Assembly: GCA_039679385.1 (NCBI GenBank)
Contig: JBDKVB010000007.1
Span: forward strand, 1-52,474
Direction: 5' to 3'
DNA length: 52,474 bases
From: Armatimonadia bacterium
GTDB lineage: Bacteria; Armatimonadota; Zipacnadia; Zipacnadales; JABUFB01
Below the pieces are notes generated by a model, which saw only the letters and a list, made by a program, of their open reading frames with translations, ran no database searches and was not told the DNA's origin. Below, piece after piece: positions 26,774 to 52,474 of this stretch (its first letter is position 1; every line of letters starts with the position of its first letter). The position numbers and the translations under genes are program-made.

Positions 26774-26961
26774 GGAAGTGCCCCTCCGGAGACGGATTGC
26801 GGCCTCGAGAGACAGTATTCTCGTTGCCCTCGGCGCGGACCTTGCCCCGGAACAGGTTGCCGCAGGCCCAGGCGTCCACGGTCAGTACCCAAGGAACCGG
26901 CGCGGGAGGCGGCGAACTCTTTGGCCAAAGCCGTGCCGACTTCGCGAGAACGGGTGAAACC

Positions 26962-29900: not shown

Positions 29901-30177
29901 GCCGGTTCTGTCCTTCACCGGGCAGGGGACGCGGGTCGCTGCAGTGCCGGTGTCCGTCTCGCCGGTTGAGGGAAGGGCCGTCGTTGAGACGAACGCCAAA
30001 GGCGATCAGGTGCGTGTGGCGGGTGCGGCGACGGTGACCTTCTCGCAGCTCCAGCCGGGCGGCGTGTACCAGGTGACGGTGGACGGTGTCGCCACGACTC
30101 AGGCCGCCGACCAGGGAAGGCTGCAGGTTCAGGTGAAGGGGCCGGAGAGCCGTATCGCGATTGCCCTGCTGAAGTGA
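26962..30177 (+). CDS. Large secreted beta-rich protein of unknown function
   Basis: A 1071-residue protein with signal peptide 1-23 (VAVVALGSALASMPAVAG). I do not recognise a catalytic family. A carbohydrate-binding-like beta-sandwich lies at about 162-270 (LLAGWDFQADAEGWRALHSC to EWVRLQERP). The rest is rich in aromatic residues and predicted beta-strands, with motifs such as FFNIYWHLSTGASETTCF and FNFRWLN-like stretches that could form a lyase or glycosidase supersandwich. The C-terminal about 80 residues look like a small beta-domain. The frame is open upstream to 26797, but ATG 26962 is the only start giving a signal peptide; its ribosome-binding site is weak. The GH29 fucosidase gene follows after 52 bases, suggesting cotranscription and a role in fucose-containing glycan use. 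Confidence 0.75.
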   Translation: MRNLCSVAVVALGSALASMPAVAGTIPWDTTYAPEGLPQVTVRWEDPEQREVFVVEGQEYQCRVATWPAKILSLRVHGKDLLGPEGLSPSFVDAQGSRYTVAPRDLTPVWDVWRRRWTPASDSRARMNVWSASPYYWDAHLLEIPLVTEGYLAARSSLKEGRLLAGWDFQADAEGWRALHSCTVEAKPEGTLLITATGDDPYLESPAVSVAGPLQVVLRMRTQAGGGAALYWTSDTAPEYGGGSVATFPVTADGEWHEYRVPIQFAGKLTRVRLDPPGETGTTEVEWVRLQERPQDDPKAPKPARGELVFHAYADQLRIEFRVDQPEGQPAPQRAILEGETPGARVETVGERPLLKLGEGEGTALVLGRPRATFDPEHKLWSARMEDARPGTYWVMKPTHSGTTTEALFANDLFPMGDNAVSVTGGYWLGYDEASGLYRVQVARTGGGYSFEEGYMNPSRRASVGLRFHDESVDRSMIVKCMTGIGCLEASVLTDEYGFPLPTPAFVCKNFGGELEEPDDSAYGDSYFPVALEANQDKSLQVANLIQGWGNHMLKQVSSIRFFNIYWHLSTGASETTCFTHNWMQIGRSGVLHIPDFRPLSGPFTVGQPQHGCVQWPGFLQYNGGKGRLVYEKTVLESVSPCLARFTLHYHTSDDTARARLSVMEIPQRDEMRTFVRLRYDWEKPVEIVGDARLNFRWLNLFEKRMPAALIYTDAEAKTQQVAMKTDDTPMLTGVPLTKQSPFVGSVADAGGYGCVVLVRGFRARLGGVDYDQAAVSAQFGTGDGSYWLTVPTETLKLLAGDFVEAEVMLMPHGEPTLPAFKAERERTERFGDGVPVVKEVKVGEKLSDFPARVQAAEEVAAFSIEGGFDYMPLIVEGFQRPGVPILWRGDLWQDQQVGGGDGYQVEGDGKGGYRFVFLYPVRRGQGLSCMVTRADCTTGISRMYDENGRLVLEAPQEGEFHLKAPVLFGPGRNVLTAGAPVLSFTGQGTRVAAVPVSVSPVEGRAVVETNAKGDQVRVAGAATVTFSQLQPGGVYQVTVDGVATTQAADQGRLQVQVKGPESRIAIALLK

Positions 30178-30229
30178 CGCACGGGACTTCGTTTCCCTCT
30201 GCACACGCTGAGCGAAAGGTGGAGATCAG

Positions 30230-31978: not shown

Positions 31979-32007
31979 GCACAGGGGAGCGTTGCGAGCC
32001 AAGATAG

Positions 32008-32039
32008 CGATGGCCGGGCTGCTTGCAGCCCGGCCATCG
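32008..32039. terminator. Perfect palindromic hairpin between convergent genes
   Basis: A 15-base perfect inverted repeat: GATGGCCGGGCTGC (32009-32022) and GCAGCCCGGCCATC (32025-32038), extended by one C-G pair and separated only by TT. It lies between the convergent ends at 31978 and 32053, so it probably terminates both transcripts. It lacks a long T tract on either side. Confidence 0.78.
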
Positions 32040-32052
32040 AGGTTTCGGCAGA

Positions 32053-33933: not shown

Positions 33934-34056
33934 GGGAAGGGTTTCCTTTCGCTCGGGCAGACGCGCTTGGGATCGGATTCCGGTCAACAAGCGAGGCTGA
34001 TTCGTCGCCGGTGTCCCTGCGGCCTTCCCCTGTGTGGGCCCTGGGTTACTGCGTCC

Positions 34057-34803
34057 TCACCGGGACTGCGCCTCAGGCGGCCACCAGCGGAACACCCAGG
34101 AGGGGTCCTCAGTCGCACAGGCCACGGCTGATAGATAGCCCGCTGCCGGTTCAAAGGAGACCAGCGACCAGGGACCGGAGTAGTGCGGCGGAAGGTGGAA
34201 GAAGGGTCGCGACGTCTCCGGGCAGATCTCGACCGCGAAGGAGTCCAGGGCACAGGAGAGCCCTTCGCCACAGGCCTTCACGAAGGCCTCCTTGCGCGTC
34301 CAGGTGGCGCAGAAAGCCCTGGCACGCTCGGGAGGCGGCAAGCTCGCCAGGGCTGCTGCCTCGGCCAAGGCAAAGAAGCGGGTGGCAACCTGCAGGTCGG
34401 TCTGGCCGTCGGAGATCGGCTCCACGTCGATGCCCACGGGGATCCCGTCAGTGACGGCGATCAGGGCCAGTTCACCTGCATGGGTGAGGTTGAAGTCCAG
34501 GGCCGTTGCATGTGCGCGGCTGTCCAGGAGAGGCTTTCCTTTGGGACTTCCCGCGAAGGTGACCGCAGAAGCCTCGATCCCTAGATATGCCGCCAACACC
34601 GAGCGCAGGAAGCAGTGCGACCGGACGTAGCGGCGACGATCACGGGGAAAGCGGAAGGCCTCGGCCCGGGCCAGTTCGGAGCTATCCAGCACCTCCTCCG
34701 GCGCCGGGACCGGATCGCCCTCCGTAAGGCGGAAGCCCCAGAGGTGAAGCTCGTCTGGGGCAGGAGACGGAAGGCTGAGGTCGGTTGTGGGTGTCGGCGA
34801 CAT
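34057..34803 (-). CDS. 4'-phosphopantetheinyl transferase, Sfp type
   Basis: A 248-residue enzyme that transfers the phosphopantetheine arm of CoA to the serine of carrier domains, here presumably the three in the adjacent NRPS proteins. The family's metal-binding and catalytic motifs are visible: VGIDVEPI near 122-129 and FCATWTRKEAFVKACGEGL near 167-185. FNLTHAGELALIAV lies just before the first motif. The length is typical for Sfp/Gsp-type enzymes. The start ATG 34803 is preceded by GGGAG at 8 bases. It follows the C-A-T-TE gene by only 27 bases, so it is the last gene of the NRPS operon. Confidence 0.95.
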   Translation of the reverse strand: MSPTPTTDLSLPSPAPDELHLWGFRLTEGDPVPAPEEVLDSSELARAEAFRFPRDRRRYVRSHCFLRSVLAAYLGIEASAVTFAGSPKGKPLLDSRAHATALDFNLTHAGELALIAVTDGIPVGIDVEPISDGQTDLQVATRFFALAEAAALASLPPPERARAFCATWTRKEAFVKACGEGLSCALDSFAVEICPETSRPFFHLPPHYSGPWSLVSFEPAAGYLSAVACATEDPSWVFRWWPPEAQSR

Positions 34804-34830: not shown

Positions 34831-37800
34831 CTATTGCGGCATCTGCTCCAGCCACTCCTCGACGGCAGCGATCAGGGCGTCAAGGTGAGGCGGCTCGAAC
34901 ATAGTGGCATGGTTGCCGGGCAGGAACCTCAGGTTCAGGTCGCCCGACACGAAGGGGCGCCATCCCAGGTCACGGCGGAAGCCGGTCAGCCAGGTCGTCT
35001 TCGCGGTGCGGAAGACGGTCATGTCTCCCGCGTAGGTCCCGGGGACGTAGGCGCGTGTCGCCTCGAAGTGGCGCAGCATCATGGCATGGCGTTCCGGCGG
35101 CGGCGGCGGATTCCAGTAGGCGAAGAAGGGCTCGCCTCGGTACTCCTCCCGACCGGCGAGGTGGCAGAGACGGGCGATCCGATGGCGGGCCCTGCCGAGT
35201 ACATCGGCGCACCATCGAGCCCTGGTCTCCGGGGAGGTGCGCAGGAGTAACCACTTGGCGGTTCGTGCCAGGGTCAGAAGACGGCTGACGGCGAAGGCTG
35301 ACCATAGCCGTGGATCCGCGGGCAGATGGTCGAACTCACCGACGGGTCGGTCCAGGAGCCCCAGATGGACCTCGTGCCTTCCGTGGGCCCGAAGTTGACG
35401 CGCCATCTCGAAAGCGATCAGGCCGCCGGAAGAGTAACCCAGCAGCGCGACCGGTCCCTCAGGACAGCGTGCCTCCAGTTCGGCCACATAGCTTGCGGCA
35501 ATCTCCTCGATGCTGCCGAGGGGCTCGCGGAGACCGTCAATCCCCTGGGCCTCAAAGCCATACACGGGACGGTCGGGCGACAGTCGGCGGACGATCTGAT
35601 AGAGCGTCAGGCAATCGCCGCCGATCCCATGAACCAGGAACAAGGGCGAGCTGTCGCCCTCGGCTCGCATTGTCACGAGGGGTGACCACTGGTGCTTCCC
35701 GGGATCCTCGCGCAAGGCCTGGGCGAGGCCCTCCAGAGTGGGAGACCTGAAGAGCGTGGACAGAGGCAGGCGGCGTCCGAACGTCTTCTCAACCTCCGCC
35801 AGCAGGCGCACCGCGAGCAGGGAGTGACCGCCCAGATCGAAGAAGTCGGCATGCACATCGACCGAGGAGAGCCCTAACAGTCGCTCCCAGATCTCGGCCA
35901 GACCTTCCTCCAGCGCATCGCGCGGACCGGCAGCAGCAGAAGGAGGAGCAGTTGCTGGAGCCGGCAGAGCCTGGCGGTCGACCTTGCCGTTCGCGGTCAG
36001 AGGCAGGTCCTTCAGGAGTACCACTGCCGAGGGGATCATGTACGCCGGAAGTCGCTGCTGGAGCTCGCTGCGGACCTTCTCCTGGGTCAGGTCCGCTCCC
36101 GGCTCGGTCGTCAGGTAGGCGACGAGGCGGCGCTCGCCCGGTGTGTCCTCCCGCAGCACCACGACGGCCTGCCGCACGTGCCTGAGCTCGGCCAGGGCTG
36201 CCTCGATCTCCGCCGGTTCGATGCGGAACCCACGCAGCTTCACCTGATTGTCGAGGCGTCCGAGGAAGTCCAGCGTCCCGTCGGGTAGCCACTTCACCAG
36301 GTCTCCCGTGCGGTACAAGCGTGCCCCTGGAGTGTCATCGAAGGGATTGGGGATGAACTCCTCGGCAGTCAACTCGGGACGATTCCAGTAGCCCTGCGCG
36401 AGCCCGTCGCCGCCCAGGTACGCCTCGCCGGGCACCCCGACGGGCACGAGGTTCTGATGGCTGTCCAGGACGTAGACCTCGGAGTTGGCCAGTGGTCGGC
36501 CGATGGGAAGGCTGTGAGCCTGTGGGGCGACCTGCGTCACGAGGTGCCAGGTGCTGAAGGTTGTGTTCTCCGTCGGCCCGTAGCCATTCACCATACGACG
36601 TGGTGGACCGGCAGCAAGAACCGCACGGGCGGCACGGGGATCAGCGGCCTCGCCCCCAAAGACAAGGTTGTCCAGACAGGAGAAGACGGCCGGGTCCTGC
36701 GCGGCGATCTCGTGGAACAGGGCAGTGGTGAGGAACAGGGTCCCGATCCGGCGGTCCGTGAGTGCCTGTGCCAGACGCTGTGGGTCCAGTGCGGTGTCGC
36801 GGTCGAGACCAACCAGACAGGCGCCGTTGAGCAGGGCGCCCCAGACCTCGAAGGTGCCGGCGTCGAAGGCGCAGTTGGAGGCCTGGGCGACGCGCATCCC
36901 CGGCCCGAGGCTGATGAAGTCGGTGTTGCACACCAGCCGGGTGATGCCGCGATGGGGGATCGCCACTCCCTTCGGCTGCCCCGTGGACCCGGAGGTGTAC
37001 ATCACGTAGGCCAGGTCCTCTGCAGAGCAGGCAGGAAGCGCTTCGGCAGGGACCTCGCCGGTAGACACGTCCTTGAGGTCCAGTAGCACCTGCGTGAGGT
37101 CGCGCTGTGGCAGTTGCGCAGTTAGGTGAGCGCTGGTGATGACCACCTGGGCGCCGGTGTCATCCAGGAGGAGGCCCAATCTCTGCGCAGGTGAGGCCGG
37201 GTCAAGCGGCACGTAGGCGGCACCGGCCTTGAGGATCGCGAGCCAGGCGACCACCATCTCGACGGAGGGCTCCAGCCACGTGGCAACCAGCGCTCCAGAG
37301 CCGACACCGAGACCGCGAAGCCGATGGGCCAGCGCCGTTGCCAAAGCCTCCAACTCGCGGTAACTCAGCGGCTCCTGCCCCGGGTACTCGACCGCCGGGG
37401 CGTCCGGGGTTCTCTCGGCCTGCCGCTGGAACAGCTTGTGCACGGATGCCTCTCGTGGGTACTCGGTACGCAGGCCCCGGGAGAGCTGGATAAGCTCCCG
37501 AGCTTCGGGCTCCTCGATCATGGGCAGTTGCGAGAGGTGGCAGTCCGGGTTGGCGACAGCGGCACGCAGCAGGTTGTGGTAGTGCTCGGTGAGCCTGCGC
37601 GCTGTCTCGGCCTCGAAGAGCGAGGTGCGGTACCGCATGTGGCAGCGAAGTGCCTCCGGCAGGGGCGTCAGTTCGCAGTATAGATCGAAGTTGGCGATGA
37701 CGGCAGGCGGTTCAATCGCCTCGACGCGCACATCGGGGGCAAGCTGCATCGGTAAGGGCGAGTCGAGGCTCTGGAAGGAGGCCTGGAAGATCGGCGTGCG

Positions 37801-38952
37801 GCTCAGGTCGCGCTCGGGCTGCAGCTCCTCGACGAGCTTCTCGAAGGGCAGGTCCTGGTGGGAGTAGGCGGCCAGCGCAGTCTCCCGTATGCGCCCCAGT
37901 AGCTCGCGGAAGGTCGGGTCGCCGGAGAGGTCTACCCGCAGCGGCAGCATGTTCACAAAGAACCCGACCAAGGGCTCGACCTCAGGCGAGTTGCGCCCCG
38001 CGATCGGGCAACCGATGATGAGGTCCTCCTGGCCACTGTAGCGGCTCAGGAGCACACAGAACACCGACAGCGACAGCATGAAGCCCGTAGCATCCGACTG
38101 GGCGGCCACAGAGACGGCCTCATCCCACAACTGGCGCGGCAGCATCTGGACATGGAAGCCGCCGTTGTGTTCAAGCGCTGCCGGTTGTGGATGGTCGGTT
38201 GGCATCTGCAGGACGGGCAAGGGGCTCGCCAGGTTTTCGCGCCAGTACGCCACTTGCTGCTCCAGCGTCTCGCCCGTCAGCCATCCGCGTTGCCACTGGG
38301 CGAAGTCACCGTACTGGATCGGCAACGCGGGCAGGTCTGGCTCGCGGCCTGAGGCTAGCGCCTGGTAGGCCTCGGACAACTCTCGCCAAAGCACTCCCAG
38401 CGACCAACCGTCGAAGACCGTGTGGTGTACCGAGAGGAGCAGCACATGCTCCTGGGGCGCAGTCCGCAGGAGCTGGACGCGCAGGAGCGGTCCGTGGGTG
38501 AGATCAAAGGGCCGAGGGCGCTCCGCCACCAGCAGTTGCTGGAGGGTCTCCCCTCGCTCCTCCTCGGGAAGCTGAGAGAGGTCCCGGGTCTCGTAGGACC
38601 AGGCCTCCGGCGCCAGAATCACCTGTACCGGCTCGCCCTTGCGCTCGTGGAACACGGTGCGCAGGACCTCATGGCGCTCAACGATCCTCGCCAAGGCCTC
38701 TCGCAGGGCCTTGGTGTCCAGGGGACCCAGGAGGCGGGTTAGGCGGGAGATGCTGTACAGGGGCGTATTGGGTTCGAGAGTCTCCAGGAACCAGAGTCGC
38801 TGCTGCGCGAAGGAGAGCAACAGCGGAGCGTCTGGATCGCGGGGCGGAATCGTGGCAGCAGGCCGGCCACCGCGCCGCCGGAGCAAGGCACGTTCCAGCG
38901 CCGCCCTCTGAGCGGGCGTCAGACCTGCGAGTCGGTCATCCAGGGAGGACAT
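34831..38952 (-). CDS. Nonribosomal peptide synthetase, C-A-T-TE termination module
   Basis: A 1373-residue module. The condensation domain (about 42-480) has the intact HHTVFDG motif (176-182). The adenylation domain (about 500-1000) has YTSGSTGQPKG (652-662) and YGPTE (791-795). The specificity positions read D697, A698, F701, F740, V764, G766, G790, T798, F799, K990 (DAFFVGGTFK). This is close to the valine-type code DAFWIGGTFK, so an aliphatic residue such as Val or Ile is the best guess. The carrier domain has LGGHS with S1044. The type-I thioesterase (about 1100-1373) has GYSSG with nucleophile S1174, candidate D1201, and H1348 in PGNHATMF. It is the third enzyme in assembly order, 78 bases after the C-A-T gene, and would release the chain by hydrolysis or cyclisation. 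Confidence 0.95.
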   Translation of the reverse strand: MSSLDDRLAGLTPAQRAALERALLRRRGGRPAATIPPRDPDAPLLLSFAQQRLWFLETLEPNTPLYSISRLTRLLGPLDTKALREALARIVERHEVLRTVFHERKGEPVQVILAPEAWSYETRDLSQLPEEERGETLQQLLVAERPRPFDLTHGPLLRVQLLRTAPQEHVLLLSVHHTVFDGWSLGVLWRELSEAYQALASGREPDLPALPIQYGDFAQWQRGWLTGETLEQQVAYWRENLASPLPVLQMPTDHPQPAALEHNGGFHVQMLPRQLWDEAVSVAAQSDATGFMLSLSVFCVLLSRYSGQEDLIIGCPIAGRNSPEVEPLVGFFVNMLPLRVDLSGDPTFRELLGRIRETALAAYSHQDLPFEKLVEELQPERDLSRTPIFQASFQSLDSPLPMQLAPDVRVEAIEPPAVIANFDLYCELTPLPEALRCHMRYRTSLFEAETARRLTEHYHNLLRAAVANPDCHLSQLPMIEEPEARELIQLSRGLRTEYPREASVHKLFQRQAERTPDAPAVEYPGQEPLSYRELEALATALAHRLRGLGVGSGALVATWLEPSVEMVVAWLAILKAGAAYVPLDPASPAQRLGLLLDDTGAQVVITSAHLTAQLPQRDLTQVLLDLKDVSTGEVPAEALPACSAEDLAYVMYTSGSTGQPKGVAIPHRGITRLVCNTDFISLGPGMRVAQASNCAFDAGTFEVWGALLNGACLVGLDRDTALDPQRLAQALTDRRIGTLFLTTALFHEIAAQDPAVFSCLDNLVFGGEAADPRAARAVLAAGPPRRMVNGYGPTENTTFSTWHLVTQVAPQAHSLPIGRPLANSEVYVLDSHQNLVPVGVPGEAYLGGDGLAQGYWNRPELTAEEFIPNPFDDTPGARLYRTGDLVKWLPDGTLDFLGRLDNQVKLRGFRIEPAEIEAALAELRHVRQAVVVLREDTPGERRLVAYLTTEPGADLTQEKVRSELQQRLPAYMIPSAVVLLKDLPLTANGKVDRQALPAPATAPPSAAAGPRDALEEGLAEIWERLLGLSSVDVHADFFDLGGHSLLAVRLLAEVEKTFGRRLPLSTLFRSPTLEGLAQALREDPGKHQWSPLVTMRAEGDSSPLFLVHGIGGDCLTLYQIVRRLSPDRPVYGFEAQGIDGLREPLGSIEEIAASYVAELEARCPEGPVALLGYSSGGLIAFEMARQLRAHGRHEVHLGLLDRPVGEFDHLPADPRLWSAFAVSRLLTLARTAKWLLLRTSPETRARWCADVLGRARHRIARLCHLAGREEYRGEPFFAYWNPPPPPERHAMMLRHFEATRAYVPGTYAGDMTVFRTAKTTWLTGFRRDLGWRPFVSGDLNLRFLPGNHATMFEPPHLDALIAAVEEWLEQMPQ

Positions 38953-39030: not shown

Positions 39031-42000
39031 TCACAGAACCGGATCGCCCTCGGACGCCTCCACCGTGTCTAGCAGGTCGGCGAGTTCGCCTTCCTCCGTC
39101 TGGGCCATGAGCTCGCGGGTCAGTTCCCGAGACAGCCCTGCCACGGTCGGCGTCTCGAACAGCGTACGCAGCGGTAACTCAAGGCCGATGTCCTTGCGGA
39201 TCCGGAGCATCACTCGGACGGCGGCCAGGGAGTGCCCGCCCAGGTCGAAGAAGCTATCATGCACGCCGACACGGTCCAGCCCGAGCACCTGCCCGAAGGC
39301 GTCCGCAACGAGCTCCTCCACCGGCGTCCGGGGCGGTTCATAGCCGACCTCCAGCGCCGGACGGGTCTGCTCCGGTGGCGGCAGAGCTTCACGGTCCACC
39401 TTGCCGCTGGAGTTCAGCGGAAGGCGCTTGAGGAACACAAAGGAGCTTGGGATCATGTAGTCGGGCAGACGCTGTGCGAGTGACTGCCGCAGTTTCGTTA
39501 CCGTCGGCGAGGTCCCCGGCGCCGGCACGAGGTAGCCGACGAGAGTCCGTTCGGTGCCTGGCTCTCCCCAGACTGCCGCAACCGCCTGGGTCACCTCCGG
39601 AGGGTCTAGCAGCGCCGCTTCCACCTCGCCCAGCTCGATGCGGAAGCCACGGACTTTGACCTGCTGGTCGAGCCGACCAAGGATGTCAAGGTTGCCGTCG
39701 GGCAGCCAGCGCACGAGGTCACCCGTCCGGAAGAGACGGGAAGTCGGGTCGTCGCTGAAGGGATTGGGAAGGAAGCGTTCGGCGGTCAGCTCCGGCTGGT
39801 TCAGGTAGCCGCGGGCCAGCCCATAGCCGCCGATGTAGAGCTCCCCCGGAACCCCGATCGGTGTCGGGCGACCGCGCCTGTCGAGAACGTACATGGTCCG
39901 GTTCGCCAAGGGCCGGCCGATCGGCACACGAAGCACCGGACCCTCAGCGCCGAAGTCCGGTGGGAGATAGACCGCCATGGCCTTGATCGTCGTCTCGGTC
40001 GGTCCACAGGCGTTCATCAGGCGTATGTGGTCCAGTGGCAGCTCACGCCACTTGCGCAGTGTATCCGGGGGCATCACATCGCCGCCGAGGTTGATCCGGC
40101 GCAGAGGCATCCCGGTCAGCCGTTCAGGGCCCTGCGCCCAGTCTTCGAGCAGTTGCCGCCAGAAGACCGGGGTGATGTGCAGGTGGGTGATGCCGTGCTC
40201 GAAGATCTGCGGCAGGTAATCCGAGACACGCCACCGGCGAGTGTCCGGGAGGACGATCCGCGCGCCGACCGTCAAGGGTCCGAGAATCTGCTCGAGGGAC
40301 GGGTCGAAGGTGGGTGGCATGAACTGCAGGATGCAGTCGCTCTCGTCCAGTGGGAAGAGGTGAGCCACAGCCCGGCAGTGGTCGGCAATCGCCTGGTGGG
40401 AGATCATGACGCCCTTGGGCCGACCCGTGGAGCCGGAGGTGTAGATCAGGTAGGCCAGGTTGTCCCGAGTGACGCGGCAGGGCGGGTTGACGTCGGTCTC
40501 GTCGGCAAGACCATCGTCACCGGTGAGAGGCAGCACCTGCGAGTGAAGGCGACTGGCCAGGGCCTGATGCTCTGCGACGGTGACGATCACCTCTGCCCTG
40601 GTGTCAGAGAGGAGGAAGCGGAGACGCTCCAGGGGCCAGACTGGGGCGACGGGAAGGTAGACGCCGCCGGCCTTGAGTACCCCCAGCAGGGCGACGACGA
40701 GATCCGTGCAGCGTTCCATCAGCACAACCACGGGCACCTCGGGCCCTACTCCGAGAGCCTGGAGACGGTGCGCAAGCCGGTTCGCCCGACGGTTGAGGTC
40801 GGCATAGGTGACAGTCTCGCCCTCGTAGATCAGGGCCACAGCTTCGGGCCGCCGCCTCACCTGATCCTCGAAGCTCTGGACGACGAGTGCCTTGTCTCCG
40901 AAGTCGACGGCGGTGTCGTTCCACTCGACCAGGATCTGGTGGCGCTCCTTCTCCTCCATGATCGGCAGGTCCCAGATGCCTGCCTCCGGCCTGGCAAGGA
41001 CCCCACGGAGGAGTGTCGCGAAGTGACTGCAGAGCCTGTGGAGGGTGTGGGCCTGGAACAGGTCGGTGCTGTAGTTCGCCACCAGGGACAGGCCGGAGGG
41101 CTGAGGTGTGACGGAGGTCGCCAGCTCGAACCGTGCGACGCCGGGGTCGTAATCGTACTGCTCGACGCGTAGGCCCTCCGCGCGCACCCTGGGCCTGGGA
41201 ACATTGCGAAGCTGGAACATGGCCTGGAACACCGGCGAGCGACTGAGGGTGCGTGCAGGTTGCAGTTCCGCCACCAGCCGTTCAAAGGGGAGCTCCTGGT
41301 TGGCGTAGGCGGAGAGACAGGTTTCCCTGACTTGCGCCATCAGCTCAAGGAAGGTCGGTGTGCCGGTCAGGTCGAGGCGCAGGGCGAGAGTGTTGACGAA
41401 GAAGCCCAGGAGCCCCTCGGTCTCGAGCATCTGCCTGCCGGCGACCGGGACACCGATGACGACGTCCTCCAGCCCGGTGTGGCGAGAGAGGAGCACGCCA
41501 TAGGCTGCCAGGAGCGTCATGAAGAGCGTGCAGCCGTGAGCCGACCCCAACTCGCCCAGAGCCTGCGACACGTCTGCGTCGAGGTGCATCGACTCCTGAG
41601 CGCCACGTGAGGATGGCTGAGCGGGACGCGGGTAGTCGATGGGCAGTTCGAGGACCGGAAGATCACCGGCGAGGTGCTGCTTCCAGTGCTCAAGCTGCCG
41701 GGCAAGGTCCTCGTCCTGGAGCCTTCGGCGCTGCCAGGCTGCATAGTCACCATACTGGATCGGCAGAGGGCTGAGAGACGGACACCGGCCATGGCTCAAG
41801 GCGTGGTACGCTTGGTCGAACTCAGCCAGGAGCACGCCCATGGACCAGTCGTCAAAGGCGATGTGGTGCACGGCCCAGAACAGGATATGGTCGTCGGGCG
41901 CAAGACGGACCAGGAGCGGATGGTACAGCGGCCCTCGCGCGAGATCGAAGGGTGCAAGACCGTTCTCGACGCCCAGGCGGAGGGCTTCGGCTTCACGCTG

Positions 42001-42481: not shown

Positions 42482-44383
42482 CTAACTCGACGTCCGGTCG
42501 GGGTCCTCGGCGAGCACCTCGGCCAGGAGCATTCTGGTGATCATCTCCGCCTGGCCGGGGAGCGTGGGGTGATCGAAGAGGCTGCGAAGGGTTACCTGAA
42601 GGCCAAAGGTCGCACGGTAGCGTGCGGCCAGACGGGTGGCCTTGAGCGAATCGCCTCCCTGCTCGAAGAAGCTGCGATCGGGGTCCGGCTCCGGTGTTCC
42701 CAGGACCTCCTCCCACATCGCGGCCATCAAAGCCTGCGCCGCTGCGCAGGTCTCACTCAGGGCCTCGGGGTCGTCCTCCAGGTCGAGTGGCACTTCGGGC
42801 GTCTGCGGGGTCAGCAAGTGTCCGAGCTTGTCCGCGAGGCCGATCCTCTGCAGCTTCCCGGTGGCACCGCGCGGCAGTTCGTCGACCAGAATCACCTCGC
42901 GCGGAACCTTGTAGTCGGCGAGCTGCCTGGCGGCGAAGATCACGAGCTCGTCCGGGTCTGGGTGGGAGCCCTCGCGCGGGACCACGGCCGCCACGATATC
43001 CTCGCCGAGGATCTCGTCGGGCACGGCGAAGGCGATGGCCTGGGAGACCTCCGGGTGAGCGGTCAATACGTCGTCAATCTCGCGAGGCGCGACCTTCTCG
43101 CCTCCGCGATTGATGAGCTCCTTGAGGCGCCCGGTGAGGTAGTAGTAACCGTCCTCGTCACGGTAGCCCTGGTCGCCGGTATGGAACCACCCTCCGGTGA
43201 AAGAGGACGCGTTGGCTGCGGGGTTGCTCTCATAGCCGGAGGTGATCGTCTCTCCGCGAGCCACGACCTCGCCGATGTCGTTGGGTCCTAACAGTCGACC
43301 CTCCTGGTCCATGTCCATGATGGCCAACTCGGTGCCGGTGGGAAGGCCGACAGATCCCGGCTTGCGCGGACCCGGTGGCAGCGGATTGCAGGCCATCAGG
43401 TGGGTTGCCTCGGTCATTCCGTAGGCCTCGAGCACCGGGACAGCGAAGGTCTGCTCCAGTTGACCGAGTACCGAAGGCGGAAGTGGCGCCGAGCATGAGC
43501 GAAGGAAGCGTAGCGGACGACGGGCGATGACCTTGCGGTGTGCAGGCGCAGCACCCAGTATGGCCTGGTGGATTGTCGGGACGGCGGTGTACCAGGTGGG
43601 CGCCAGGGCGTCCATCCAGCCGAAAAACTCCGCGGCCGATGGCCCCGGCGCACAGATCACGCTGCCCCCGACACAGAGCGAGGACAGCAAGGCGCCAATC
43701 AGACCGTGGACATGGAACAGGGGCATGACATTGAGGCAACGGTCGGCGCCGGTGAGCTCAAGGGCCCTGGCGACACCGCGCATCGCACCGGTGAGATTGG
43801 CCTGCGAAAGCGGCACGATCTTCGGGCGGGCCGTGGTTCCGGAGGTATGCAGCGCCAGTGCCACGTCCTGGGCGCAGACCGGACCGGGAAGAGCTGCCGC
43901 GCCGAAGGGCTCGGCTTCCAGACGGAAAGCGCCGCAGCCCTGCTCCGGCTGTGGGTGCAGTTCGATCGCGGGAAGGCCCAGTGCCCTGGCGACGTCTCGA
44001 GCCGGAGAAGGGACTCCAGCCTGCACAACCACAGTCTTCACACCGAAGTCGGTGAAGGCGAACTCGAAGTCCTCCTCGCGGTAGCGCGGGTTGAGAGGAG
44101 CGCAGGTGGCTGCGGCACAGAAAGCGATGAAGGCAGCCGCCATCTCAGGACCGTTGGGCAGAACCAGCGCCACCCGGTCCTGGCGACCAAGGCCGAAGGT
44201 CTTGCAGGCTGCAAGGGTCTCGGTGACCTGCCTCCCGAGGCCTTCGTAGGTGAGAGGAGAAGCACCGGGTGCCAGCAGAGCGGGCCGGTCGGGAGTTGCC
44301 TGGATATGCGGCAGAAGGACCTCGTGTAGCGTCTGCGGAACAGTCAGATTGGGAGTACAATGCGGTGTGCTGGTATCGACCAT
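42482..44383 (-). CDS. AAE3/oxalyl-CoA-synthetase-like adenylation domain fused to a carrier protein (putative NRPS loading enzyme)
   Basis: A 633-residue AMP-forming ligase plus carrier protein. The ligase part (about 15-520) has LHTSGTTARPK (178-188), MPLFHVHGL (220-228), TWYTAVPTIHQAIL (263-276), RFLRSCSAPL (292-301), EAYGMTEATHLM (319-330) and K510 in GATGKLQR. These blocks are nearly identical to those of the oxalate-CoA ligase (AAE3/Pcs60) subfamily, not ordinary NRPS A domains. A carrier domain follows (about 545-620) with EQGGDS and S579. No condensation domain is present. It is the first gene of the NRPS operon, so it probably activates a carboxylic acid and holds it as the starter. 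The frame is open to 44641, but ATG 44383 has AGGAG at 5 bases. Confidence 0.9.
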   Translation of the reverse strand: MVDTSTPHCTPNLTVPQTLHEVLLPHIQATPDRPALLAPGASPLTYEGLGRQVTETLAACKTFGLGRQDRVALVLPNGPEMAAAFIAFCAAATCAPLNPRYREEDFEFAFTDFGVKTVVVQAGVPSPARDVARALGLPAIELHPQPEQGCGAFRLEAEPFGAAALPGPVCAQDVALALHTSGTTARPKIVPLSQANLTGAMRGVARALELTGADRCLNVMPLFHVHGLIGALLSSLCVGGSVICAPGPSAAEFFGWMDALAPTWYTAVPTIHQAILGAAPAHRKVIARRPLRFLRSCSAPLPPSVLGQLEQTFAVPVLEAYGMTEATHLMACNPLPPGPRKPGSVGLPTGTELAIMDMDQEGRLLGPNDIGEVVARGETITSGYESNPAANASSFTGGWFHTGDQGYRDEDGYYYLTGRLKELINRGGEKVAPREIDDVLTAHPEVSQAIAFAVPDEILGEDIVAAVVPREGSHPDPDELVIFAARQLADYKVPREVILVDELPRGATGKLQRIGLADKLGHLLTPQTPEVPLDLEDDPEALSETCAAAQALMAAMWEEVLGTPEPDPDRSFFEQGGDSLKATRLAARYRATFGLQVTLRSLFDHPTLPGQAEMITRMLLAEVLAEDPDRTSS

Positions 44384-44790: not shown

Positions 44791-46230
44791 ATGTTAGCAA
44801 TTGAGGTCATAGCGGCTGACCTTTCAGCAGTCTCAGCCCCGGTCAAGGCGCCTGTGCTCGGCAGTCGGGGTCGTCCTGTCGCCCCAGCCGCGGCCGGTGT
44901 CCTCGCAGTGATGGTCGTGGCGCTCCTTCTGGCTCCGTGCCTGGCCGCATGGTCCGAGACGCCCGCAGTGACGCTCCCCCAGGGCGTCGACCTCAACAAG
45001 CCCCTCTCCCTTGTTGATGCGGTCCGGGTTGCGATAGCCAACAGCCCCAGGCTGCCGATCGCTACGGAGACCGCCAAGCGAGCGGAGGCCTCGGCCGTTC
45101 AGGCACGAGCGGCGAAGCTTCCGGAGTTGACCGCGGGCTACGACTGGGCAACCGGCGAGACTGCCGCCGCCCGTCACCGCAGCACCTCTCACACCCTCGC
45201 CCTTGAGCTGAACCAGACCTTCTACCAGAGCGGCCTGAAGGAGAGCATCCGTGCCGCCGAAGAGAGTGCGAAGGTCTCCTGGCACGGCGTGGCAGATACG
45301 CAGCGCCAGTTGATCCTGGATGTGGCGACGGACTACTACGCGGCGCAGGCCGCGCTGGCGTACGTGCAGGTGTCGCGGCGTTCGGTGATGTCCTCGCGTC
45401 AGCACCTCGATGCGGTCGAAGCGCGCATCGAGCAAGAGCTCGCGGCCAAGGCAGACCGCTATGCCTTTGACGTGGAATTGGCGCAGGCCCAGGTACAGGC
45501 CATCTCGGCGGAAAACCAGGCAGAAGTGGCCCTGAACGCCCTGAAGACCGTCATGGGACTTCCGGCAGATCAGCCCCTGCAGCTCGCCGACACCCTGGGA
45601 CGGCCGGTGAAGCCCGAGCGGCTGCCGGACCTGGTCGCGCAAGCTTACGCAGCGCGTCCCGACATCCGCCAACTCGAAGGACAGGTGGAGGTTGCGCGTC
45701 AGAACCTGCGGATCGCCCAGATCAACCGTCGTCCGGTGGTCAGTGCCGGTGGCAGCGCGGGCTACGGTGACTACAACGGCGACACCGATGACAAATGGCA
45801 GGTGCAGGTCGGCGTGTCCCTGCCTCTGTATGATGGTGACTTCACCAGGGCCAAAGAGAACAGCGCGCGCTCGGCTCTGACCATCGCCGAGGAGAACCTG
45901 CGGCAGGCGAAGATCGAGATCAGCGCCGAAGTCGAGCGCAGCTATCGGAACGCGATCCTATCGGACGCGCGGATTGACGCCGCCGATGCGGCAGCGAAGT
46001 CAGCGCAGACGAGCCTGGATGCGGCCCAGGGCAAGTACCTGGAAGGGCTGGCGAACGTGGTGGAGGTCACCGATGCGGAGTTGCGCCTGCGCGAAGCAGA
46101 TGTGGCGCTGGTCCAGGCGCAGTACGACTACAACTCGGCTCTGGCAGCACTTCGGGCTGCCCTCGGACAAGCTGCCGCGCCGGGGACCGAGAAGCTGATC
46201 ACCGGCAGTCCCGCTCCGGCTTCGAAGTAG
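44791..46230 (+). CDS. TolC-family outer-membrane efflux protein
   Basis: A 479-residue outer-membrane channel that would connect to MacA across the periplasm. After an unusually long N-region, a hydrophobic signal segment ends around residue 53 (VLAVMVVALLLAPCLA). The body shows the two homologous halves of TolC proteins. SLVDAVRVAIANSPRL starts the first, and ARPDIRQLEGQVEVARQNLRIAQINRRPVVS starts the second. Long alanine-rich helices, the strand segment VQVGVSLPLYDGD and a final GLANVVEVTDAELRLREADVALVQAQYDYN helix complete the fold. ATG 44791 is preceded by GGAG at 8 bases. It is the first gene of the export operon and divergent from the NRPS operon. An outer-membrane partner shows the organism is diderm. 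Confidence 0.92.
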   Translation: MLAIEVIAADLSAVSAPVKAPVLGSRGRPVAPAAAGVLAVMVVALLLAPCLAAWSETPAVTLPQGVDLNKPLSLVDAVRVAIANSPRLPIATETAKRAEASAVQARAAKLPELTAGYDWATGETAAARHRSTSHTLALELNQTFYQSGLKESIRAAEESAKVSWHGVADTQRQLILDVATDYYAAQAALAYVQVSRRSVMSSRQHLDAVEARIEQELAAKADRYAFDVELAQAQVQAISAENQAEVALNALKTVMGLPADQPLQLADTLGRPVKPERLPDLVAQAYAARPDIRQLEGQVEVARQNLRIAQINRRPVVSAGGSAGYGDYNGDTDDKWQVQVGVSLPLYDGDFTRAKENSARSALTIAEENLRQAKIEISAEVERSYRNAILSDARIDAADAAAKSAQTSLDAAQGKYLEGLANVVEVTDAELRLREADVALVQAQYDYNSALAALRAALGQAAAPGTEKLITGSPAPASK

Positions 46231-46393: not shown

Positions 46394-48472
46394 ATGGCCG
46401 CTGAAGAGATACTCCCCCCGCCGAACAACAACCGAAACACGCTGCGGCGCTGGATCGTGCGGATTGTGGTGGTCGTGGTGGTTGCGGCCGTCGTCGTGGG
46501 CCTGGTCATCGTCAAGAAGCGTCGCGCTTCTGAGGCGGAGATGGCGGCCATCAGTACGGAGAAGGTGACCCGGGGGTCGATCCTTGAGACGGTATCGGCT
46601 ACGGGAGTGATTGCTGCCGAGACGGGCGCCCAGGTGAAGATTGGCTCCCAGATTAGCGGGCGCATCAAGAAGCTGTACGCCGATATTGGCGACCGTGTGG
46701 AGGCCGGGCAGGTCGTCGCTGAGATCGATGCGCCGGACCTCGAGGCAAACCTCGAGAGTTCACGGCGCAACGCCGCCGCTCAGAGCGCCAAGTACTTGCA
46801 GCAGTTGCAGGGCGCGCCGATGCAGCACACGCAGCTCATCAGCGCCTTTGAGCAGGCCTCGGAGTCCTTGCGACGCTCGGAGGCGGACAAGCAGCGTTCG
46901 GATGCCGCCCTGGCATCGGCTGAGAGCAAGCTGAAGAGCGCCATCGCCGCCCAGACGGGAGCCTACGCTCGGCTGCGTGAAGCCGAAGCCAGGGTCCGGT
47001 CGGCAAGGGCTGCCGTGCCCCTGCAGAGCACCCAGACGACGGCCGAGATCGACCGTGCCAAGGCAGCAGTGAACGTGGCTGCGGCGAATCTGCAGCAGGT
47101 TGAGAAGAGCGCGAACCTGGAGATCGCCAATGCTGTGGCTGCCCTAAAGCAGGCGCAGTCCAACGCCGCCCTGTCCGCTCTGACCCTCAAACGTCAGCAG
47201 GCGCTCGTGGGCAAGGGCTATGTGTCCGGTGCCGAGGTGGACAGTGCTCGGACCGACAGCGAAGTCAAGGCTCAGGCCGTGCAGACGGCCCAGGCGAATG
47301 TGGACCTGGTCAAGGAGAAGGTCGCGGCGGAAGTTCCGACCGCCCAGGAGCAGTTGGGCCAGGCCAAGGCATCCCTCACTGCGGCCCAGGCAGGCAGCTA
47401 CCAGGACTTGATGAGCTCGGAGTCGCTGCGCACTGCCGAAGCGAGCATGGAGGACGCGGTCTCCTCGATAGCGCAGGCCAAGCAGACGGTGGCGTCGGGG
47501 CAGTCGGACATTGACTCGGCGAAGGCTGCGATCACGGCGTCCGAAGCGGATGTGCGCAGTTCGCGAGCGGCCCAGCAGACCGCCCTCGCGAACCTCACCC
47601 AGGACAAGCTCAAGCAGCAGGACATCAAGGCGGCCTACGAGGCCAAGCGCCAGTCGGAGTCGCAGGTCAAGTACCAGGAGGCCCAGTACTCGAAGAGCTA
47701 CATCCGCAGCCCCTTCAGCGGCATGGTGGTCTCCCTGGCGCAGCAAGAGGGCGAGACGGTGGCCGCAGGTCTGTCGGCGCCGACCTTGATTGAGGTCGTC
47801 GACCTTGAACGGCTTGAGGTGGACGCCTACGTGGACGAGACAGACATCGGCCAGGTGAAGGTCGGTCAGGAGGCGGAAGTCACTGTCGACGCCTACCCCA
47901 AGAAGACCTTCAAGGGCCAGATCACGAAGGTTGCCTCTTCGGCCACCAAGACGGAAAACGTGGTTACCTATCTTGTGAACGTCAAGATCGAAAAGGGCGG
48001 AGAGGGGCTGCTAAAGCCCCAGATGACGGCCAACGTCACGATCACCGTCACCCGCAAGGATGGTATTGTTCTCGCGCCCAATGAGGCGGTCAAGCAGCAG
48101 AAAGCAGGCACCCAGGCGGTCGTCCTGAAGGGTGGCAAGCCGGAGGTTCGAACGCTTGAGATCGGGATGACGGACGGCGACAACACCGAGATCGTTTCCG
48201 GACTGCAGGAGGGTGAAGAGGTCGTGGTGGCCGGCTGGGACAAGCTCGGGATCGAGGACTTCGCCAGCACACGCAAGCCTGGGTTCATGAACCGCACGCC
48301 CTTCGGTACGACTAGCTCGCGGCAGACCACAGGCGGCGGTGCAGCCGGTGCGGGTGGTGCAGCCGGTGCGGGTGGCAGAAGCGGTGCCGGAGGCGGGGGC
48401 GGAGGCGGTGCAGCCGGCCGCGGTCGTGGTGGTAGCGGTGGTGGAGCTAGTCGCGGAGGTGGCGGGTCCTAA
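46394..48472 (+). CDS. MacA-like periplasmic membrane fusion protein with extended hairpin and Gly-rich tail
   Basis: A 692-residue adaptor, much longer than E. coli MacA (371). An N-terminal TM anchor (20-40) is followed by a lipoyl half (about 55-115) and a long coiled-coil hairpin (about 115-435). The hairpin contains the TolC-contact pattern R267-x3-L271-x6-S278. The second lipoyl half begins YIRSPFSGMV (436-445). Beta-barrel and membrane-proximal domains run to about 640. Residues 647-692 are a Gly/Ala/Ser/Arg-rich tail encoded partly by a tandem DNA repeat. The start ATG 46394 lies 163 bases after tolC; the gap has GC-rich hairpin potential but no clear terminator. The stop overlaps the ATPase start (TAATG), indicating coupling. 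Confidence 0.93.
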   Translation: MAAEEILPPPNNNRNTLRRWIVRIVVVVVVAAVVVGLVIVKKRRASEAEMAAISTEKVTRGSILETVSATGVIAAETGAQVKIGSQISGRIKKLYADIGDRVEAGQVVAEIDAPDLEANLESSRRNAAAQSAKYLQQLQGAPMQHTQLISAFEQASESLRRSEADKQRSDAALASAESKLKSAIAAQTGAYARLREAEARVRSARAAVPLQSTQTTAEIDRAKAAVNVAAANLQQVEKSANLEIANAVAALKQAQSNAALSALTLKRQQALVGKGYVSGAEVDSARTDSEVKAQAVQTAQANVDLVKEKVAAEVPTAQEQLGQAKASLTAAQAGSYQDLMSSESLRTAEASMEDAVSSIAQAKQTVASGQSDIDSAKAAITASEADVRSSRAAQQTALANLTQDKLKQQDIKAAYEAKRQSESQVKYQEAQYSKSYIRSPFSGMVVSLAQQEGETVAAGLSAPTLIEVVDLERLEVDAYVDETDIGQVKVGQEAEVTVDAYPKKTFKGQITKVASSATKTENVVTYLVNVKIEKGGEGLLKPQMTANVTITVTRKDGIVLAPNEAVKQQKAGTQAVVLKGGKPEVRTLEIGMTDGDNTEIVSGLQEGEEVVVAGWDKLGIEDFASTRKPGFMNRTPFGTTSSRQTTGGGAAGAGGAAGAGGRSGAGGGGGGGAAGRGRGGSGGGASRGGGGS
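48338..48373 (+). repeat. Perfect 18-base tandem duplication in the Gly-rich tail of macA
   Basis: Two identical adjacent 18-base copies beginning GGTGCAGCCGG (48338-48355 and 48356-48373) encode the repeated GAAGAG unit of the tail. This kind of in-frame tandem repeat is likely to vary in copy number between strains. Confidence 0.85.
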
Positions 48473-49230
48473 TGGGCGTTATTAGTGTGCGGGACGTGAC
48501 CCGGGTGTACGCGCTTGGCGAGGTCGCCGTGCGTGCACTCAGGGGTGTGAGTCTGGAGATCGATAAGGGCGAGTTCGTCGCTATCACCGGCCCTTCAGGC
48601 TCCGGCAAGAGCACGATGATGCATATCCTGGGGTGCCTGGACACCCCGTCTTCGGGCTCCTATGTTCTGGACGGCGTGGAGGTTGCGACCCTCAACGACC
48701 GGGAACTGGCGAAGACCCGGAGCCTGAAGATCGGCTTCGTGTTCCAGCAGTTCAACCTCCTGCCGCGGACGACGGCGCTGGACAATGTGGAACTGCCTCT
48801 GTTGTACAACGGTGGTGGTGAGAGGCAACAGCGCGCTGCGGAGGCGCTGCGGCGTGTGGGGCTTGGCGACCGACTGTACCACCTCCCGAACCAGCTCTCG
48901 GGCGGGCAGCAACAGAGAGTCGCCATTGCACGGGCGCTGGTCAACAGCCCCTCGCTCCTGCTCGCAGACGAGCCGACCGGGGCTTTGGCCACACTGCAGA
49001 GCGAGGAGATCATGGCTCTGTTCCAGGAGCTCAACGACGCGGGGATCACCGTTGTGATGGTCACTCACGAGCCTGACATTGCCCGGCACGCTAAGCGCAT
49101 CGTCCGCTTCCGCGACGGCCGCATTGTCGGTGATGCTCCGGTGGTTGATCGGCTGCGGGCGCAGGGCTTGCTGGAGGAGCTTCTGAAGGATCCGATGCTG
49201 AAAGCGGACAACGGTGGTGGGATGCAATGA
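48472..49230 (+). CDS. MacB-type ABC exporter ATPase (separate polypeptide)
   Basis: A 252-residue ATPase of the MacB/LolD group that powers the exporter as a mechanotransmission pump. Walker A is GPSGSGKS (40-47), the Q-loop is [10 protein letters not shown], the signature is [15 protein letters not shown] (142-156), Walker B is LLLADEPTG (162-170) and the H-loop is VTHEPD. The D-loop normally reads GALD or GNLD, but here it is GALA with A173 in place of the aspartate. In E. coli MacB the ATPase and permease are fused; here they are separate genes. ATG 48472 overlaps the macA stop by one base, and the stop overlaps the permease start by 4 bases (ATGA). Confidence 0.94.
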
Positions 49231-50459
49231 GTGTGTGGGAGAGCATCCGCATTGCCTTGCGAGCCCTGCGCAGTAACAAGATGCGCACGGCGCTCACGAT
49301 GCTGGGTATCATCATCGGCGTGGCGGCGGTCATTGCTATGGTCGCCCTCGGACAGGGTGCTGCCAAGAAGATCCGCGAGCAGTTCGAGTCGATGGGCACC
49401 AACCTGCTGGTCGTCCGGGCGGGGAGCCCGATGCGTCGCATGGGTCCCTCTGGTGGGTCAAGCAGGAATACGCTCATGCCCTCCGACTCCGAGGCGATCG
49501 TCCGCAAGTTCAAGGGGACCATTGCCATGGCCTCGCAAGTGTGCCGGGGCAATGGAGACGTGAAGCTTGGCAACACCACCTGGACAACCTCCATCGTCGG
49601 GGCGACCCCCGAGTACGAGACCGTGGCCAAGATGCCCGTGGAGGAGGGGCGCTGGCTGACCGATCAGGAGGAGAAGGGCCGGCAGCGCACCGTACTGGTG
49701 GGACGAACGGTCATCGAGAAGCTCACCGGGGACCGTTACGCCAGCATTGTCGGTAGGGACGTGCTGATCCTGCGGACTCGCTTCCAGGTGGTCGGGGTCC
49801 TGAAGGAGAGAGGCGCCGGCGGGTTCGGCCAGGACCAGGACGACCTGCTGATCGTGCCGTGCAACACTGCGATGCGTCGGCTGTTCAACCGCACCAGCCT
49901 GAGCGAGATCGACATCAGTTGCCGCACTCAGGGGGACACCGCGCTGGCTACCGAGCAGGTGGTCTCGCTCCTGCGGGATCGCCACAAGCTGCGGCCGCCC
50001 TTCCCGGACAACGACGACTTCAGCGTTCGCAGCCAGGCGCAGATGCTTGAGGCGAGTGCCGAGAGCTCGCAGACCATGACCTCGCTGCTCGGCGGCATTG
50101 CCCTCGTCTCGCTGCTCGTGGGCGGCATCGGCATCATGAATATCATGCTGGTGTCGGTTACCGAACGAACGAGGGAGATCGGGATCCGCAAGGCAGTCGG
50201 CGCGACCAGTCACCACATCCTGATGCAGTTCATGATCGAGTCCCTGGTGATCGCGGTTATCGGCGGTCTCACTGGAATCGCCCTTGGGGTGGGAACGGTG
50301 CTCATCATCTCCAATGCCCTGGGCTGGGACGCGCTCATCCAGACCTCCTCGGTGGTGCTGTCTGTGGTCGTCTCGGGCGCAGTGGGTGTGTTCTTCGGCA
50401 TCTACCCTGCCTACCGCGCCGCCAACCTGAACCCCATCGACGCCCTGCGGTTCGAGTAG
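49227..50459 (+). CDS. MacB-type ABC exporter permease (FtsX/MacB fold)
   Basis: A 410-residue inner-membrane protein with the MacB arrangement. The amphipathic N-terminus WESIRIALRALRSNKMRTALTMLGIIIGVAAVIAM includes TM1. A periplasmic domain of about 220 residues follows. Three C-terminal TM segments complete it, including GGIALVSLLVGGIGIMNIMLVSV followed by TERTREIGIRKAVGAT, the hallmark FtsX/MacB motif. The ending is YPAYRAANLNPIDALRFE, also conserved. It overlaps the ATPase gene by 4 bases and ends the operon before the terminator at 50495-50526. With TolC and MacA it should form a tripartite pump spanning the envelope, plausibly for the NRPS product. Confidence 0.95.
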   Translation: MSVWESIRIALRALRSNKMRTALTMLGIIIGVAAVIAMVALGQGAAKKIREQFESMGTNLLVVRAGSPMRRMGPSGGSSRNTLMPSDSEAIVRKFKGTIAMASQVCRGNGDVKLGNTTWTTSIVGATPEYETVAKMPVEEGRWLTDQEEKGRQRTVLVGRTVIEKLTGDRYASIVGRDVLILRTRFQVVGVLKERGAGGFGQDQDDLLIVPCNTAMRRLFNRTSLSEIDISCRTQGDTALATEQVVSLLRDRHKLRPPFPDNDDFSVRSQAQMLEASAESSQTMTSLLGGIALVSLLVGGIGIMNIMLVSVTERTREIGIRKAVGATSHHILMQFMIESLVIAVIGGLTGIALGVGTVLIISNALGWDALIQTSSVVLSVVVSGAVGVFFGIYPAYRAANLNPIDALRFE

Positions 50460-50554: not shown

Positions 50555-52474
50555 CTACTGGGGAGCCAGAAGCCTGAAGCGCACGGGCATGTTGTAATCG
50601 GTGGGGACGACGACGAGGGTACTGGCCTGCTCCGCCAAGAGAGCGCTACCCTCCGGAAGCTCACCGGCGCTCCACACCCCACTCAGCCGCAGGAGGTACG
50701 GGTCGGTTCGCGCGATATCCGAGGAGGCGACACTGACCTCGAGGCCTCCCTCCACAGGTCTGACCATCACCACGCAGGGACGTCCCGCTGCCAGCAGGGG
50801 CCCTTCGCCGGGAAGCGCCTCGCCCGTCTCGAAGAGAACATAGGCGGTCGTCTCGGTTGCACGATCGTAGAGGATATGGGCGCGAGAGTCGGCGGCGAGG
50901 AGGCGGTACGGAGCGGTCTGTTCCTTCTCCATGTCGCGGGCGAGCTTGCCCATAGCCTCCGGGGTCGTCTCGACCAGCAGGCTGTACACTGCGCGCCCGT
51001 TCTCCGGGCGGGTGCCATGCTCGAAGTAGGCCTTCGCGAAGTCGCCCTTTGAGGGCGTGAAGTACTTCGCGTTGTCCTCGAGCTTCTTCTCGCGGAACCG
51101 CTGGGTACGAATATCGATGATTGGATCGTCTTGCTTGTCCTTGAGGTAGCGGTGGAGCAGGTAGGTCCACTCCTGTGGACCTCGGCGGACCTGCAGGGGC
51201 GGTCCTCCGGCGTGCACGTAGTAGCCGTTCCGCTGGCTATCCAGGAGCCAGTGAGCGCGGCCGTCGGTGAGGCGCAGGTCGGTGGCAAGGCCGGTCTGGC
51301 TCTCGCCATCCACCCAGGTCCTCTCCTCAGGCGTGGCCATCGCGCATTGGTAGAGAGTCGTGTCGCAGGGGCGGTCCTGGGTGCTCTTGATGTCCGTGGT
51401 GATCGACGTGACGCGGTTGCCGAAGAAGAACCAGGAGCGCCGGAAGGACACGTCGCGGCCCTCGAAGTCCATGCCCCAGGCACCGTCCTGATCCAGCGCG
51501 GTGCCTCCGGCGAAGGGCTTGGAGTTGCCGTACATGGTGTAGCCGTCGAACATCTCCTGCTGCGGGCGGACCAGGGAAGTGGCTCCCGGCCAGTGGCACC
51601 AGTCCCACCCGTCATAGCGCCAGCCACTGGCCTCGCCCGAAACGGGATTGCCGCTTGACTGCACCAGCAGTGAACCGTTGCGAGCGTAGCGGCCGTAGTT
51701 GTTGTTCTCCATCCAGCCGTAGATCTCCAGCCCGCGCCAGAACTTCACCATGCCCACACCCGCGACCAGCCAGTTGTCGCGTCGATGGAGCGCAGCGGCG
51801 GCGCCGTTGAAGGTCCAGTGGCCGGTGAGCGTCAGAGGCTTGATGCCCCTAGCCGTTAGCTCGGCCACCCGCGGGTCCGTCGGGTTGCTGCAGTGCAGCA
51901 GGAACAGCCCGGCCATCTCGGGATCGAGCGCGGCCGACCCATCCGGCGTGCCACTGATCGCCAGGGCATAGGCCAGCTCGGCGAAGTTGTAGTCCATCGG
52001 CACTCCTGCACGGCCGAGCAGGTTAGCAGGCATCGAGTACTTATCGCAGGCGAAGGCATTGGCATACACGTAGGTCTTGAGTCGCTGCATGGCGCCCATG
52101 CTGAGGCGCAGGAACGTCGGAGCGAAGTCGCGGGCGAAGTAGAGGATCGTCGGCATCGAGTAGGACGCATAGGCGAAGTGATGCATCCAGTGATGGTAGG
52201 CAGTGCCGTCCGGGCCGACGGTGGTGTTGTTCGTCAGGACAGTGTCGAGGTGGTACTTGAAGGCCTGCAGGCGCTGCAGACGCTCACTCTCGTCGGGCAG
52301 CATCAGCATCAAGGCGGGGTAGTTGCGGTTGAAGCACTGGAAGGCGTCCATGTTGGACGAAGGGTTCTGGACGAAGACGTCGCCGTGCAGCGCCGCCATT
52401 GACCAGCAGACACCCAGTGCCACGTCGCGCAGCAGTCCCTCCTCGGCGAGGACATCCCGCATTGCCATGAAGAT
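50555..52474 (-). CDS. Polysaccharide lyase family 8-like protein (chondroitinase/hyaluronate-lyase type), 5' end cut by window edge
   Basis: The visible part is about 639 residues and the frame remains open to the window edge, so the N-terminus is missing. The alpha/alpha-toroid catalytic region includes VGPDGTAYHHWMHHFAYASYS, which supplies candidate catalytic histidines. The central beta-domain has VAGVGMVKFWRGLEIYGWMENNNYGRYARNGS and WDWCHWPGATSLV. These match PL8 lyases, where a WNRFPGTT-like motif and a Tyr/Arg pair in a YGRY.RNG-like context are conserved. The C-terminal beta-sandwich follows. PL8 enzymes cleave chondroitin, hyaluronan or xanthan by beta-elimination; the substrate is undetermined. 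The end is convergent with the MacAB operon. Confidence 0.85.
   Translation of the reverse strand: MFMAMRDVLAEEGLLRDVALGVCWSMAALHGDVFVQNPSSNMDAFQCFNRNYPALMLMLPDESERLQRLQAFKYHLDTVLTNNTTVGPDGTAYHHWMHHFAYASYSMPTILYFARDFAPTFLRLSMGAMQRLKTYVYANAFACDKYSMPANLLGRAGVPMDYNFAELAYALAISGTPDGSAALDPEMAGLFLLHCSNPTDPRVAELTARGIKPLTLTGHWTFNGAAAALHRRDNWLVAGVGMVKFWRGLEIYGWMENNNYGRYARNGSLLVQSSGNPVSGEASGWRYDGWDWCHWPGATSLVRPQQEMFDGYTMYGNSKPFAGGTALDQDGAWGMDFEGRDVSFRRSWFFFGNRVTSITTDIKSTQDRPCDTTLYQCAMATPEERTWVDGESQTGLATDLRLTDGRAHWLLDSQRNGYYVHAGGPPLQVRRGPQEWTYLLHRYLKDKQDDPIIDIRTQRFREKKLEDNAKYFTPSKGDFAKAYFEHGTRPENGRAVYSLLVETTPEAMGKLARDMEKEQTAPYRLLAADSRAHILYDRATETTAYVLFETGEALPGEGPLLAAGRPCVVMVRPVEGGLEVSVASSDIARTDPYLLRLSGVWSAGELPEGSALLAEQASTLVVVPTDYNMPVRFRLLAPQ

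Follow-up and report, generated by a model that had tools for sequence, protein, structure and literature searches.

An AAE3-type ligase fused to a peptidyl carrier as a probable oxalate-activating starter module of a nonribosomal peptide synthetase

Genes at the locus

The window, i.e. the whole analysed stretch of 52,474 nucleotides from an Armatimonadia bacterium, contains on its minus strand an operon-like series of genes in the order ligase-carrier, C-A-T, C-A-T-TE and phosphopantetheinyl transferase (PPTase). Divergent from the ligase gene, and beginning some 400 nt before its start, lies a group of export genes. The coordinates of genes and domains are reported in Table 1.

Table 1. Genes and protein domains of the locus, with window coordinates
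Feature	Position	Strand	Basis or remark
Ligase-carrier starter protein, AAE3-type ligase and peptidyl carrier, 633 aa	42482..44383	-	Pfam, PDB, trees, start site
AMP-binding domain, AAE3/oxalyl-CoA synthetase clade, aa 28-384	43232..44302	-	Pfam E 7.5e-65
AMP-binding_C subdomain, aa 435-510, A10-type motif GATGKLQR at its end	42854..43081	-	Pfam E 6.6e-18
Carrier domain PP-binding, aa 554-614, FFEQGGDSL	42542..42724	-	Pfam E 1.4e-15
NRPS module 1, C-A-T, 1123 aa	39031..42402	-	begins 79 nt past the end of the ligase gene
NRPS module 2, C-A-T-TE, 1373 aa, Val/Ile-like pocket letters in the A domain	34831..38952	-
Phosphopantetheinyl transferase, 248 aa, would prime carriers	34057..34803	-	PF01648, PF22624
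TolC-type outer-membrane channel, possible exporter, divergent from ligase gene	44791..46230	+
Membrane-fusion adaptor, MacA/HlyD-like, 692 aa	46394..48472	+
ABC ATPase, MacB/LolD type	48472..49230	+
MacB-type permease, MacB_PCD and FtsX	49227..50459	+

The starter gene opens with an ATG at 44383, preceded by the ribosome-binding-like sequence AGGAGA, and closes with a stop at 42482. A first-pass annotation, made from the letters of the sequence, had described a carrier fused to the ligase and had named an inactive carrier serine as the finding that would speak against it. The fused PP-binding domain was recovered by Pfam, and the serine is present, intact, as residue 579 in the GGDS of FFEQGGDSL. 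Pfam detected no C domain before the ligase-carrier protein, and the protein which follows opens with one. The starter position and the dipeptide length proposed in the annotation both agree with this gene order, a ligase-carrier followed by C-A-T and C-A-T-TE, and the protein is very probably an NRPS loading module. Nothing was found in a promoter scan, and the terminator count was not above chance.

The C domain which would accept the starter carries HHIAFDD at 41848-41868 (minus strand), with Asp replacing the Gly of HHxxxDG. Among the divergent genes, the adaptor is unusually long, and models of the membrane-fusion and lipoyl types match it at several separate places. The cluster is flanked by polysaccharide-degradation genes (17809-33990 and 50555-52468), coding for a GH106 rhamnosidase, an alpha-L-fucosidase, a heparinase-like protein, a polysaccharide lyase 8 and a protein of 1573 aa with a lambda-carrageenase-type propeller.

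The ligase family and the recurrence of the fusion

When the window protein was compared with the PDB by phmmer, the top matches were four oxalate-CoA ligase sequences, at 429 (6qjz), 423 (5ie0), 359 (8aff) and 252 bits, after which scores fall to 188 bits for LgrA, 180 for a 4-coumarate ligase and 171 for a malonyl-CoA synthetase. A maximum-likelihood tree of 51 sequences joins the window ligase in one clade, with support 100/99, to the oxalyl-CoA synthetases of plants and yeast and to the stand-alone orthologues from bacteria. The clade with the oxalyl-CoA synthetases was retained at 86/81 in a smaller tree, with FAAL, EntE (a long branch in the trees), FadD, MatB and the NRPS A domains outside; the placement among fatty acyl-AMP or aryl-acid ligases, which the first-pass annotation had set against its own assignment, was not what the trees returned. 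An AlphaFold model of the protein, built from 34 sequences, has a mean pLDDT of 82, the carrier part being of low confidence. Its eight best Foldseek matches are oxalyl-CoA synthetases (E 3e-61 to 2e-47), the next match standing at 5e-46, and in a second structure aligner, whose ranking covers the listed families only, oxalyl-CoA synthetase entries reach Z 48.6-55 versus 46.5 for MatB, the next family.

The sequence blocks quoted earlier as diagnostic of the AAE3/Pcs60 subfamily are all present: PLFHVHGL (aa 221-228), TWYTAVPTIHQ (263-273), RSCSAPL (295-301) and EAYGMTEATHLM (319-330). They recur almost letter for letter in AtAAE3 and LsOCS, and are absent from the other aligned ligases. It is clear from sequence, tree, structure comparison and family-specific residues that the window ligase belongs to the AAE3/Pcs60 oxalyl-CoA synthetase family.

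Three other identities were rejected. A FAAL is excluded by the absence of PF23024, the presence of an ordinary AMP-binding_C subdomain and the position of FAAL outside the clade, and an aryl-acid AMP ligase (EntE/DhbE) by the lack of grouping with EntE in either tree. In an amino-acid A domain, the Asp of the A4 core, which binds the alpha-amino group, would sit where the ligase has His224 (FHVHG); the A domains of window modules 1 and 2, unlike the ligase, have FD at the A4 core.

The ligase-carrier fusion is found in 5 of 291 genomes of the phylum, including that of the window, and always stands ahead of a condensation domain. In G268, a ligase-PCP of 625 aa is followed by C-A-T-TE and PPTase; in G031, motifs and similarity identify a ligase-PCP of 634 aa, a 1321-aa protein reading as C-A-T-TE and a 246-aa PPTase-like protein. 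The window order, a protein with C first and then a PPTase, is repeated in loci L103 and L111, and a PPTase gene closes the set in the window, in G268 and, judging from translation similarity, in G031. In G048 the whole line, AAE3-PCP-C-A-T-TE with one extension module, is a single chain of 1890 aa. In G061 ligase, PCP and C domain make up one polypeptide of 1060 aa, in the vicinity of which a gene codes for ketosynthase-like, KR and C domains. A single clade for the five fusions, as one origin of the fusion would give, was not rejected (p-AU 0.43), and two further genomes (G251, G252) carry stand-alone AAE3 ligases. A pattern scan of GTDB contigs, of limited sensitivity for fusions, returned stand-alone orthologues only.

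Some features of these loci deserve mention in their own right. The Asp change of the window C domain is also seen in G048 (HHIVFDD, L112 P0004 aa 746-754), and the C domains of G268 and G031 are without it. The nucleophile motif of the G031 thioesterase (L103:13644-17609, minus strand) reads GFCVDG, with Cys in place of the Ser seen in the window, G268 and G048. The hybrid region beside the AAE3-PCP-C gene of G061 (L114:2099-15474) includes a free-standing C-domain protein, an acyltransferase-3 protein and a protein of 1893 aa with AMP-binding, ketosynthase-like, KR, carrier and C domains. At a contig end of a genome of the same order (L105:1-873, G026:C258), short pieces of ligase, A domain and PPTase-like tail are joined in one short frame, probably the decayed remnant of an AAE3-NRPS-PPTase cluster.

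Signature residues and the choice of substrate

The nearest stand-alone AAE3 proteins come mostly from Alphaproteobacteria, with about 50-59 % identity over the ligase. Of 81 stand-alone loci, 44 have a gene of the PanE family (2-dehydropantoate 2-reductase type) no more than 4.5 kb away; two of them were checked, and in CP049030 the gene is annotated directly downstream of the ligase. One PanE protein, from Methylobacterium extorquens, is an oxalyl-CoA reductase (PMC9485241, PMC8411744). In a Methylobacterium locus (L009), an oxalate/formate antiporter is encoded near the stand-alone ligase (TIGR04259, 624 bits, cut-off 335). This gene context does not depend on the ligase sequence, and it suggests that the bacterial AAE3 branch originally acted on oxalate. 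Two plasmid proteins from Gemmobacter and Sphingobium (L118, L119; 36-37 %) were not counted as members, as several signature residues are missing and no NRPS gene is annotated nearby. In the Gemmobacter aquarius protein, of 873 aa and AMP-binding (L118:14905-17526, NZ_CP028919.1), the match to the query extends through the carrier region at 37 %.

Alignment revealed 65 positions which set AAE3 ligases apart from 26 other ligases. Ten residues rare in the latter (H179, H226, W264, R295, S298, M323, H328, N391, N425 and K430) are all found in the window protein; they are identical in three characterised oxalyl-CoA synthetases and invariant or nearly so in the 81 bacterial stand-alone orthologues (99-100 % for the nine besides N391). 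H224 is kept as well. By alignment, H224, R295, S298 and H328 correspond to H214, R286, S289 and H319 of AtAAE3. They lie in core motifs which line the acid pocket across the superfamily, and may be the residues that bind oxalate.

Inside the fusion family these residues are not uniformly kept: H328 is replaced by Gln in G031 and by Pro in G061, where Tyr also replaces H224. The substrate of these two ligases may have drifted because some putative pocket residues are lost, and drift after fusion is possible for the window ligase too. A reading with the same architecture and loading role, in which the fused ligase has exchanged oxalate for a different small polar acid (malonate, glyoxylate, a 2-oxo acid, fumarate or a short hydroxy acid), therefore has to be weighed. 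The longer branches of the fusion ligases, relative to the stand-alone bacterial ones, speak for it, as does the rank of the malonate enzyme MatB as next nearest structural family. The ligases of the window, G268 and G048, however, retain the core-motif residues which AAE3 ligases of plants, yeast and bacteria have in common, including H328, R295 and S298 of the putative acid pocket, which are common to all sampled AAE3 ligases, and drift to another acid is considered unlikely, albeit to be taken seriously. Oxalate is the probable substrate of the window ligase, and is not put forward more firmly mainly because of the losses of H328 and H224 in the family. If H328 matters for oxalate, the fusion family would divide into oxalate-type loaders and changed ones.

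Two other explanations depart further from an oxalate starter. Loaders of lipopeptides commonly have the ligase-carrier order, and the best NCBIfam model for the window protein is the FadD7 fatty acid-CoA ligase, so that a FadD7-like ligase priming a lipodipeptide might be envisaged. The score to NF004511 is, however, 416 bits, under the curated cut-off of 650, and identity with FadD7 was rejected on this ground; moreover, the DIP2-like C-terminal domain of FAAL is absent, and the clade includes neither FAAL nor FadD. The label itself says little about the substrate, because the stand-alone Methylorubrum orthologue L017 is also called FadD7 below threshold (446 bits). A fatty-acyl loader is thus very improbable. 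Even harder to credit is a genuine CoA ligase that serves to detoxify oxalate and has an incidental carrier, next to an NRPS making an unrelated dipeptide. Such a function would agree with the oxalate catabolism for which AAE3 is known in plants and yeast, as passages of PMC9935904 and PMC9485241 state, but no oxalyl-CoA decarboxylase was detected above the curated cut-off in the genome of the window, where only sub-threshold relatives occur. The intact carrier serine also argues against it, as does the adjoining C domain in each of the five genomes with the fusion, in the same polypeptide in G048 and G061.

Proposed product and comparison with known systems

The reading preferred, at a probability of about 0.6, is that of an oxalate-activating NRPS starter module contributing to an oxalyl-capped dipeptide. 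We infer that the window ligase would use ATP to adenylate oxalate, and that the fused carrier, rather than free CoA, would receive the oxalyl group on its phosphopantetheine arm. Condensation with a first amino acid would fall to the C domain of the following protein, and addition of a Val/Ile-like residue to module 2. Release by the thioesterase would yield an N-oxalyl dipeptide, for which the TolC/MacAB-type system nearby is a possible exporter.

The pocket letters of the A domains, obtained by manual anchoring on core motifs and to be taken as leads only, are DAF..VGGTF, DAF..LGVTF and DAL..IGGTF for the last A domains of the window, G268 and G031, which we take to resemble Val/Ile pockets, and DVW..LSLVD for G048, presumably close to a Ser pocket. 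The A domain of window module 1 has unusual letters by manual mapping (DPE..NGAIK), and we know of no common code which they fit. With oxalate as starter, the expected products would be oxalyl-X-Val/Ile for the window, oxalyl-Val/Ile for G268 and oxalyl-Ser for G048. We see even odds that these loci, known so far from a single bacterial phylum, represent a family of NRPS assembly lines with oxalate as the starter, whose products are N-oxalyl amino acids and dipeptides of these kinds.

Should this hold, a very small charged building block would join those already known, bacteria would possess a pathway dedicated to N-oxalyl amides, and a specific product class could be predicted from the ligase signature. 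N-oxalylglycine inhibits 2-oxoglutarate oxygenases, and N-oxalyl products could mimic 2-oxoglutarate or chelate metals. The recurrence in five genomes, together with the single chain of G048 and its one extension module, offers a compact test system. No paper tying an oxalyl-CoA synthetase or an oxalate starter to an NRPS was found in the open-access literature searched.

Among known systems, Arabidopsis AAE3 (5ie0/2/3), Lathyrus sativus OCS (6qjz) and yeast Pcs60 (8aff) share with the window ligase the fold, about 38-45 % identity, the active-site blocks and the clade. They are stand-alone enzymes acylating free CoA, whereas the window ligase is fused to a carrier and heads an NRPS operon. 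The stand-alone bacterial AAE3 ligases are closer in sequence and have core-motif residues in common with it, but they lack both carrier and NRPS and stand in a context of oxalate assimilation. FAAL-ACP, aryl-acid ligase with ArCP and malonyl-type loaders resemble the window starter in architecture, an adenylate-forming ligase and a carrier with no C domain before and C-A-T after; it differs from them in that its ligase comes from the oxalyl-CoA synthetase clade. The plant route to N-oxalyl amino acids, formed by LsAAE3 with LsBOS (PMC9935904), leads from activated oxalate to an N-oxalyl amide, as proposed for the window system, but uses a separate acyltransferase partner in place of a carrier protein and an NRPS.
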